This document shows positions 23,958-26,312 of a DNA stretch of 47,014 nucleotides, in pieces. The position numbers and the translations under genes are program-made. Under the pieces are notes generated by a model. It did not search any database and had not been told where the DNA came from. It saw only the letters and a program-made list of their open reading frames with translations. Origin of the DNA: Phycisphaerales bacterium (GTDB taxonomy: Bacteria; Planctomycetota; Phycisphaerae; Phycisphaerales; SM1A02); assembly GCA_022446905.1 (NCBI GenBank), contig JAKVBT010000005.1, positions 1-47,014 on the forward strand, in the 5' to 3' direction. Within the stretch, counting starts at the first letter, position 1. Every line of letters begins with the position of its first letter.

Positions 23958-24509
23958 ATGTGTTATCGATTGACTATTTGCGCGTTGTTCCTGCTGACAT
24001 TGACGTATTGCTTTGGCTGCTCATCGGGCAGTTCCGCGCCGAAGACCGAAGGAGCGCGGGTTGACTTGGCCAATTCAACTGCCTCAGCATTGGCAACCTT
24101 CAAAGCCGACCCTCGTTCATCCAAGTTTTTTGATACAGCCTATGGCTGGGCAGTATTCCCGAAAATCACCAAGGGTGCTGCGGGTATTGGGGTTGCTCAG
24201 GGCCAAGGTGAGGTCTACCAAGGCGGCGCAATGACTGGCTGGGTGAAGATCACCAGTGTGACCGTCGGCGCACAGCTTGGGGGACAGAGTTTCTCTGAGA
24301 TCATTTTCTTCCAAAACCAATGGGCATATGACAAGTTCACCAATAACCAGTTTGCCGGTCAGGCGACCGCCACGGCTGTTGCTGGTAAAAAGGGTGGTGG
24401 GCAAATTGCTGACTACAGCGATGGTGTGGCAGTATTTACGAGCAACAACGATGGTCTGATCGTGGCTGCAGATGTCGGTGGTCAGCAGTTCGATTTCACC
24501 CCTCGCTGA
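23958..24509 (+). CDS. Ysc84/SYLF-domain lipoprotein
   Basis: 183 residues. The signal ends at CFGC, a likely lipobox (Cys21). The SYLF domain covers the rest: FFDTAYGWAVFPKITKGAAGIG, GEVYQGGAMTGWVKITSVTVGAQLGGQSFSEIIFF and DYSDGVAVFTSNNDGLIVAADVGGQ. In eukaryotes SYLF binds phosphoinositides and actin; in bacteria it is an envelope-associated lipid-binding protein of unclear role. AGGAGGT lies about 7 bases before the ATG, one of the strongest ribosome-binding sites in the window. It is the last protein gene before the non-coding region. Confidence 0.92.
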   Translation: MCYRLTICALFLLTLTYCFGCSSGSSAPKTEGARVDLANSTASALATFKADPRSSKFFDTAYGWAVFPKITKGAAGIGVAQGQGEVYQGGAMTGWVKITSVTVGAQLGGQSFSEIIFFQNQWAYDKFTNNQFAGQATATAVAGKKGGGQIADYSDGVAVFTSNNDGLIVAADVGGQQFDFTPR

Positions 24510-25026
24510 TCGAATTCATCCACCACCATTCCACGGACTTGTCCACTGATTTATGCACCGACTTTGAGTTTGTTGCAGGCCATTGGCCATTGACGTATCA
24601 CTTCACTCGGTTGTCGCTGACTGCTCGGCCGAGGCCGGGCTGGCGTAAGGCTCTTTGAGAAGTGATGAAACACGTGTCGGATGGCGATGAACGCCCGGGC
24701 ACGACCATGCAAACTCTTTCGAGTGTGCACATCGACGTTTGCGGTTTCTAGACAAACCTTGACGTTGGTGGGTCTGCCAGATCGGGAGCACCGATTCATC
24801 GCTTGCCATGCCCGGGTCATCCTTTCTTGAAATGAGATTGAATGGCACTGCAGAAACCGGGTGGTCGTCGGCGTGAAACGTATTGGTCAGGTGCTTATGC
24901 ATCTCATCCGTCTTGACGGAAACCGATCGAGTTCACCACACTATGCGACGGCCTCACAGACATCATCGCGATGCACATTCGCAAGAAATGCGTTGCAATG
25001 CTGTATGGAAGCAAAGGCAGTCCGAG
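24510..25026 (+). other. Non-coding stretch upstream of the structured RNA candidate
   Basis: No convincing ORF on either strand. Several pairings are visible. A long-range helix forms from GATGA(acg)CCCGGGCA at 24686-24701 with TGCCCGGGTCATC at 24809-24821. The hairpin TGCA-ACTC-TTTC-GAGT-TGCA lies near 24708-24730, CCGTC-TT-GACGG at 24908-24919, and CGCA-AGAAA-TGCG near 24980. These suggest the RNA described next may begin near 24.6-24.7 kb. No clear promoter was found by eye. Confidence 0.4.
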
Positions 25027-25641
25027 CCTGACATGTTGCCGAGGCTGAGCGTCCCTGAACGCACAGCCTCGAACATGCATCAGGATTTGAGGGCGGTATA
25101 GCTGCTCGGACCGGCGGTTCCGGCGGCCCGAGCAATTGATACCGCAGACTCCGCACACAACCAAGTTGAGCAATTGAGATGTAGTCTGGATCGCCCCTAG
25201 ACTCGTCGACGACAGTAATGTCGACGACTTATCAGTGGAAGTCTTGCCAAGTGAGTGTGCCGGGAGATGGTGAAGATCGTGTTCGGAATCCGGTGCACCG
25301 ACGGGTGTTCCGGGAGGACGAGTTTCGAACCGTCGAATCAACATCGCTCGAATGAGGTGGGGTGAACATGCCAACAAAACAGTCTCCGGCGACGGCATCG
25401 CTGGGGAGGCACCACCATCTTGTAAGGACACCGACACGCCCGCAGTGCACCGGGTAAGGCGAGGCCGCTCGCCGAGATCATCCAGAGCGCCGATGGTTGT
25501 TGCGTCACAAGACCAACACATTCATGCGGTCTGGTCCTGCCCGGTCGAGCAGGCAGCGACGCCGCTCGGATCACATTCCGAGGGGGACGAAGAGAAGCAG
25601 CGAGGACGAGATCCATCACAATCTCGTCCTCGCGTTCTTTT
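25027..25641 (+). ncRNA. Candidate large structured non-coding RNA
   Basis: A chain of strong helices leads into an intrinsic terminator. At 25027-25084: CCTGA, CATGTT, CGAGGCTG and CGT pair with ACG, CAGCCTCG, AACATG and TCAGG (22 pairs). At 25093-25145: GCGGTAT...ATACCGC encloses TGCTCGG...CCGAGCA. At 25183-25203: AGTCT/AGACT. TCGTCGAC/GTCGACGA straddles AGTAAT near 25203-25228. CGGAA...TTCCG with an inner CACC/GGTG lies near 25285-25315. GGCGAG-GCCG-CTCGCC is at 25458-25473. AGACC/GGTCT, CCTGC/GCAGG and CTCGGA/TCCGAG lie between 25510 and 25582. The minus strand has no supported gene, and the plus-strand terminator demands a transcript. It does not match tmRNA, RNase P, SRP or 6S signatures that I know. 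Function unknown. Confidence 0.5.
25600..25641 (+). terminator. Strong intrinsic terminator
   Basis: A perfect 13-bp stem GCGAGGACGAGAT / ATCTCGTCCTCGC with an 8-base loop, then GTTCTTTTT. The T-run is on the plus strand only, so it ends a plus-strand transcript although no protein gene precedes it for about 1.1 kb. It lies about 75 bases beyond the stop of the opposing small gene. Confidence 0.9.
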
Positions 25642-25717
25642 TGAATTGTGGGTTCTGCTTATTGCCCCTTCGCATGCAGTGTTCCAAGTCGCATGTGATA
25701 TCGGTGAATGCAACTGG

Positions 25718-26089
25718 TCAGCCTGCGCGAGCGCCGTCAATTGGCAATGCTGGAGGAGGCTCTTCTTCTGAAGGCATCATGATGTCGAGTGCATTGATCC
25801 ACGCCTTTGGAATCTTCTGCACGCCACCGATCTGATCAGGCCCACGAGAGTCGGTCAACGCAATGAAGTGGTCGCACTCATAGATCAGCAGACCCACCGT
25901 GTGGACTTCGGCTAGCGGACGGAGTGCAAACTCGACCATGTCCTCAGGGTCTTCCCAGCCTGGGCCACCTCTTGCCTCGGCATCGACCCAACGAACCGAG
26001 ACCACTGGCCAAGATCGATCGAGTGCGCGTTCGACCTCATCCGAGTGGATTGGGCTACTGGATTCAAATGTCGGCCTGATCTGCGGCAT
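25718..26089 (-). CDS. Small conserved-type hypothetical protein, possibly phage-related
   Basis: About 123 residues. The ATG at 26089 is preferred over 26110 because AGGAGG lies 7 bases upstream. The body reads VVSVRWVDAEARGGPGWEDP, then HTVGLLIYECDHFIALTDSR and IGGVQKIPKAWINALDIM. The order of a W-x-D-A strand, GW, a V-G-x-L-I strand and a closing IPKxxI resembles small proteins common in phage genomes, as I recall; no function is assigned to them. The C-terminal tail (PSEEEPPPALP) is disordered. It converges on the structured RNA candidate. Confidence 0.75.
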   Translation of the reverse strand: MPQIRPTFESSSPIHSDEVERALDRSWPVVSVRWVDAEARGGPGWEDPEDMVEFALRPLAEVHTVGLLIYECDHFIALTDSRGPDQIGGVQKIPKAWINALDIMMPSEEEPPPALPIDGARAG

Positions 26090-26312
26090 CGATATCCTCC
26101 TGATAGACAATGATTTGTAGTCAGATTCCTTTCGCCTGCTGAGGGGTCTTGATGAGGTTTTTGGGGCTTCATGGGACTCGCTGGGGCTCTGGGCCGCCCA
26201 GCAGGGATCTCCTTGCCTTCTATGTGGGTGGAGGGCACTTTCCTGGCCATACCCGGGCCAAGGTGCTGGTCAGGTGGCAGGCATTGGCCCCAGATAGCAT
26301 CAGGAGATGAAG

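Follow-up and report, generated by a model that had tools for sequence, protein, structure and literature searches.

The window analysed here is a stretch of 47,014 nucleotides from a Phycisphaerales bacterium (contig JAKVBT010000005.1). In it, 1.2 kb without a supported protein separate a Ysc84-like gene (23958-24509, plus strand), whose product scores 23.0 bits and thus falls below the Pfam cut-off of 25.1, from an opposing gene (25718-26110, minus strand) that has no Pfam match. Homologues, folding z scores and a codon-phase test place in this interval a non-coding RNA gene of about 1.03 kb on the plus strand (24610-25642), with exact ends that we infer. The window's genome, G000, has a single copy of the region. 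An initial annotation of this DNA had proposed a structured RNA of 0.6-1 kb without a known family; the proposal is supported, except for its 5' boundary and two of the three helices that it named, the true start lying about 75 bases upstream of the position given for it, 24686.

In total, 14 genomes carry the RNA, 13 of them with both ends, the copy of G004 being cut by a contig end. They span the genus of the window, two further genera of its family and two other families of the order, and the layout is the same throughout. A DNA search of 61 genomes (G000 and 60 relatives) returned collinear blocks in six of eight congeners, and a single short piece each in G028 and G029, from the two other genera of the family, where the motifs follow on reading the same order as in the window RNA. 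Two covariance models were built, R1 from the core of nine sequences and R2 from 13 sequences. R1 matched 15 of the 181 family genomes at E<=0.01, nine strongly and six weakly; the weak matches (G202, G190, G120, G074, G097 and G122, E 3e-5 to 0.0096) lack the motifs, show coding-like sequence and were dropped. Over the order, R1 matched 15 of 400 genomes at E<=1e-4, namely the nine of the family, four new relatives that reading confirmed (G040, G048, G056 and G230), and two that were dropped after reading (G202 and G335), leaving 13 of 400 as true; in the phylum three of 392 genomes passed, all already among the order matches. R2 found 9/181 genomes in the window's family, as many as the strong R1 matches, four of nine genomes in one other family, adding G210, which was confirmed on reading, one of 51 in the second other family, and four of 397 genomes of the class. 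Three of 39 genomes were found in a more sensitive model run. The homologues outside the genus are seven: G028, G029, G040, G048, G056, G210 and G230. The model searches gave one core match per genome; where they cover more than 40 genomes they evaluate only a small number of candidates, so that an unmatched genome may still carry a copy. An exact core pattern, blind to more distant copies, was found in eight records of the GTDB collection, which we take to be G001-G005, G007, G028 and G029.

The segment 24612-25561 has a minimum free energy of -417.5 against -354.0 +/- 7.0 for 30 dinucleotide shuffles (z -9.05), and so displays the folding energy beyond shuffled controls that the initial annotation called for. 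With the same number of shuffles each, the 12 sequences tested, the window's included and G001 and the truncated G004 left out, gave z values from -6.35 to -11.81. In 200-nt windows a strong excess is confined to 25000-25300 and 25500-25700, where both strands show it, the other windows within 24500-25600 having plus-strand z values of +0.1 to -2.7; a fold with a large share of long-range pairing would give such a patchy local excess. Sequence conservation peaks in the 3' part of the RNA.

Covariation in homologues, likewise looked for on the initial proposal, is present in helices P1, P2 and P3 and in the core hairpins, as measured by fixed-column counts; the arms were picked by eye or with RNAalifold before counting, which favours them, and slid and permuted controls serve as the safeguard. 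The closing helix P1 joins a 5' strand at 24613-24630 to a 3' strand at 25543-25560. Its inner 10 bp are paired in 130 of 130 cells over 13 homologues, all 10 columns showing two or more pair types, and its eight outer columns in 91 of 104 cells. Over 14 pairs, 178 of 182 cells are paired, whereas permuting whole arms (10,000 permutations) gave 131.2 on average and 164 at most, and the inner arms of one genome fit each other at 10/10 positions versus 2-9/10 for arms of other genomes (seven representatives from the 13). An earlier free-duplex comparison ranked the cognate 3' arm first in no more than 7 of 13 rows; it was noisy, with G029 misanchored and near-identical congeners included, and the fixed-column count was used in its place.

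Inside P1 lies a conserved 5' block (CTCTTTGA..GAAACACGTGTCGG, 24651-24680), which can be made out in all 13 homologues with a 5' end. Its 3' end (24673-24680) forms the 5' strand of P2 and pairs with 25431-25438, in 40/40 cells in five congeners. Counted over nine columns, P2 is paired in 103 of 117 cells, with compensatory changes in five columns and a ninth column that is mostly unpaired; the 14 lost cells belong to G040 and G230 at the second pair, to G028 and G029 at the eighth and to ten sequences at the ninth. The fourth pair is A-U in G002 alone and G-C in most sequences. P3 is a stem-loop (25093-25145, outer strands 25093-25099 and 25139-25145) paired in 91 of 91 cells over 13 homologues, a count that omits G056, the fourteenth, which is unalignable there; five of its seven columns carry compensatory changes. 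It corresponds to the nested pair of the initial annotation, which held up (75/80 cells in five congeners, 9 compensatory). The other two helices named there did not: the long-range helix 24686-24701/24809-24821 is paired in 32 of 63 cells in the same number of congeners (4 compensatory) and is unsupported, and the 25027-25084 hairpin, with 23 pairs in this genome, is not conserved in five congeners (30/66 cells paired, 49 gapped), its 14 compensatory cells standing in uncertain alignment. P1, P2 and the core hairpins had been overlooked in that annotation.

Core hairpin A (25438-25455) bears a palindromic loop, GUGCAC (25445-25450), and core hairpin B (25458-25473), with 97.4% of cells paired, is followed by GAGATCA (25474-25480). 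GUGCAC and GGGUAAG are invariant in 13 aligned homologues and were read in the fourteenth, G210, as well. Among the five pairs of hairpin A, one varies on both sides (G-C, A-U, C-G) and three never vary; hairpin B has changes on both sides in four of six pairs. Core hairpins and closing stem together are paired in 97.2% of cells, against 20-43% in slid controls, and 14 cells are changed on both sides, as compared with 3.8 in shuffles (0/500 as high); shuffles reached the observed values in 6/500 cases for pairs with both-side change and in 25/500 for pair types. In the minimum-energy fold of G000 hairpin A is not formed, the stretch being paired elsewhere. A possible fourth helix, P4 (25266-25273 with 25338-25345), stands before a GCTC motif that G056 lacks; it is paired at 9/9 positions in G028, at 8/9 in G029, G040 and G048 and at 6 or 7/9 in the other nine sequences with the motif; its pairing within the genus is uneven, and it is not claimed. 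Inner P1, P2 and P3 contain 20 G-U and 4 A-C cells, an excess that favours the plus strand, within a count that leans to plus by the choice of arms, G-U having been scored as a pair.

Both borders of the gene carry candidate signals. Upstream lie TTWTNCACA-like boxes (24516-24558, plus strand), which resemble the consensus of DnaA boxes and are 11-12 bp apart in some homologues. They were noticed before the enrichment test. In the 170 nt that precede the RNA, 13 homologues together have 32 of them (at most two mismatches), against 7.5 +/- 3.2 at random places of the same loci (maximum 20 in 1000), 13.7 +/- 3.8 in shuffled upstream regions (maximum 26 in 1000); the opposite strand has 12. When the pattern is relaxed to NNNTBCAC, three times within 42 nt between starts, the sole cluster of the 47-kb window is 24492-24558; such a cluster precedes the RNA in nine of 13 homologues (not in G001, G048, G230 and G210) and also occurs elsewhere in the loci of G001, G003, G007 and G040. 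DnaA is one possible box-binding factor; around the best DnaA-domain hit of four genomes, in 3.5 kb per genome, there was a single strict TTWTNCACA match in total and no array. The candidate promoter, read by eye, is TTGCAG, 17 nt, TATCAC (24573-24601, plus strand), a weak match to the sigma-70 consensus at 7/12 positions in a count by eye. TTGC and TAT(T/C)A recur within a base of the same place in six genus genomes; in G000 a script preferred another 7/12 hexamer pair, and a promoter scan did not call the candidate.

At the 3' end, a terminator scan called an intrinsic terminator of 13 bp with a loop of 8 and a T-run (25600-25642, plus strand). Its stem at 25600-25633 is perfect, is followed by GTTCTTTTT, and is paired over seven pairs in five congeners in 35/35 cells, 3 of them compensatory. 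The initial claim of a perfect 13-bp terminator with a T-run on the plus strand holds as regards the stem and its conserved pairs; it is qualified by a call of the same stem on the minus strand, which has the poorer T-run, and by the count of terminator-like sites, two in 1.4 kb, in no excess over shuffles (mean 1.2, sd 1.3). Because of the minus-strand call, the stem may serve the opposing gene too. In other genera and families the scan found a terminator after P1 on the RNA strand in G028, G040, G056 and G230 and a weak one in G029; it called none after P1 in G048 and G210, where a stem and T-run are seen by eye.

The interval could hide a conserved protein gene masked by frameshifts, as long open frames on the minus strand (205 aa here, 285 codons in G028) would suggest. 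Substitutions among six genus genomes, however, are even over the three codon phases whichever of the six serves as reference (p 0.20-0.98), while the adjacent Ysc84-like gene, treated by the same method, is strongly periodic (p 1.3e-34). Moreover, most indels of the region are not multiples of three and its four ORFs have no Pfam match at E<=0.01. A masked protein gene thus has a negligible chance of being the explanation, and the earlier statement that no supported protein lies here is upheld, homologues showing no conserved frame. A different reading would make the RNA a long structured 3' UTR of the Ysc84-like gene, which ends at 24509 on the same strand, or the mere end region of two convergent genes, in keeping with a terminator stem called on both strands and a weak promoter. 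Against it, the flanking genes differ between families and the RNA keeps its ends, which argues that it is not the UTR of one gene; the genes on either side adjoin in G006 and G008 without the RNA between them; and in homologues the boxes are concentrated just ahead of the RNA. We regard this reading as highly improbable. Synteny with Ysc84 was not used, as the gene was not seen at the loci of other families, with the exception of G056 (L076), where it begins about 1.3 kb downstream of the core and not upstream as in the genus. In three loci of one family (L077, L079 and L076) the RNA follows similar genes, judged by eye to encode a cysteine-rich protein and a histone-deacetylase-like one, and a long repeated 'gacgcggacacg'-type run stands beside the G029 copy (L009, about 930-1200).

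The same site is occupied in some congeners and empty in others, as might be expected of a self-splicing or mobile RNA element such as a group I or II intron or a HEARO-like element. Neither model finds a match elsewhere in the genomes of G006 (93% complete) or G008 (86% complete), and a one-gene tree (9 rows, 384 columns, four of six forks open) puts them on different branches, so that two changes are needed. At gathering score, Rfam 15, which we take to include OLE, GOLLD, ROOL, HEARO, RNase P, tmRNA and introns, matches only three tRNAs in the window. Relaxing the threshold to E<=5 over 24400-25800 adds two chance matches far below gathering, and at E<=0.5 the loci of nine of the 14 homologues give three tRNA matches above gathering and five to microRNA families below it, none of them lying between the P1 arms. 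A blastn search of the RNA against 50,697 phage and 72,556 plasmid records gave no match, nor did the exact core pattern, which misses more distant copies, in viral contigs. Together with the single core match per genome, these results make a mobile element very unlikely as the cause of the patchiness. A diverged housekeeping RNA (RNase P, tmRNA, SRP or 6S), to which the size and the pairing of 5' and 3' ends might point as reminiscent of RNase P RNA and tmRNA, is more improbable still: the Rfam searches give it no match, no tmRNA was called in the window, and a housekeeping RNA should be carried by all relatives, whereas the fractions in the three families are those given above for R2, from large searches with strict filters and with some genomes incomplete. 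The earlier view that no known large-RNA family is involved stands as far as these searches reach, that is, for the window and the nine homologue loci.

We therefore favour, with a probability of about 0.93, a stand-alone gene at about 24610-25642 for a structured non-coding RNA of about 1 kb, which represents a new class of patchy occurrence in the order. The RNA appears to be new, in that no Rfam family matches it in the window or at nine of the 14 homologue loci and that no title or abstract start among the open-licence papers retrieved reports it; the accessible part of PMC11109978 makes no mention of Planctomycetes. Its own transcript is presumed from the conserved ends only, and it would act as a folded molecule rather than as an mRNA or antisense RNA. 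It is accessory and not a housekeeping RNA, because its site is empty in two congeners and no copy was detected in most relatives. As homologues occur in three families, its distribution is most simply read as vertical descent with repeated loss; the gene may also have been transferred horizontally. As judged from sequence, the RNA can be counted among the giant 'ornate' bacterial RNAs in the broad sense, but in no tested family of these: from one P1 arm to the other it spans 754-1318 nt in 13 homologues, and the folding excess in all 12 sequences tested is accompanied by covarying P1-P3.

In the architecture that we propose, transcription would run from the RNA's own promoter to the terminator, and a factor bound to the upstream boxes may control it. 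Sequence evolution shows that the two ends of the RNA pair as P1 and that, just inside, the conserved 5' strand pairs as P2, whose 3' strand directly precedes the two small conserved hairpins near the 3' end; the middle consists of P3 and arms that vary with lineage. The RNA thus has a small conserved core drawn from its two ends, together with variable peripheral arms. Such a core and arms, with no constant neighbour and no coding, fit an RNA acting by its fold, and the most likely role would be that of a scaffold or assembly of the 'ornate' kind. To our knowledge, few bacterial non-coding RNA classes of such size are known. A further class that covaries strongly, differs in length and is naturally present in some close relatives and absent from others would offer a direct test of whether self-assembly of giant RNAs is general, and planctomycetes would gain an RNA gene invisible to protein-based annotation.

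How such a scaffold might be built is suggested by analogy. In the accessible part of PMC12286853, OLE, GOLLD and ROOL are described as RNA assemblies in solved structures, the function of GOLLD and ROOL being unknown, in which symmetric kissing loops join copies; the contact in the OLE dimer holds a palindromic tetranucleotide and that in GOLLD a palindromic dinucleotide. Because these three RNAs share such loops, we tentatively suggest a homo-oligomeric RNA or RNP scaffold in which the GUGCAC loop is a candidate symmetric kissing contact between two copies, a possibility that we hold to be rather less than even. The loop is invariant and covariation cannot test the contact; G000, G040, G048 and G230 contain a further GUGCAC, with which an intramolecular contact is possible. 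A separate class of giant RNAs, with a core from both ends, GUGCAC-mediated homo-dimers or larger assemblies, and synthesis coupled through upstream DnaA-type boxes to replication or the cell cycle, is a speculative and unlikely extension.

In RNase P RNA and tmRNA a 5'/3' closing helix encloses a multi-branched RNA, as P1 would here, and the present RNA differs from both in its patchy presence and in having no Rfam match. The Rhodopirellula-1 motif is also a candidate RNA of Planctomycetes, without an Rfam number; in the accessible part of PMC2864571 it is described as probably cis-regulatory, and by that description it may be distinct. ROOL is, in the part of PMC12286853 available, a large ornate homo-oligomer with kissing loops, a likeness to the form proposed here, while its Rfam family finds no match in our RNA. 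The same part of that source describes GOLLD as encoded by phages or prophages, often near tRNA islands, with many members above 800 nt and a 3' region that is conserved, the 5' region less so. The 3' part is the most conserved in sequence in our RNA too; it may differ from GOLLD in its setting, having no blastn match in the phage records searched, and it differs in having no Rfam match and in a core that comes from both ends. OLE, of about 600 nt and found mostly in Bacillota according to the accessible part of the literature, is again set apart by the lack of an Rfam match. The likeness to OLE is that of a large, conserved, stand-alone non-coding RNA, in which the palindromic kissing loop of OLE would have its candidate counterpart in the GUGCAC loop described here.
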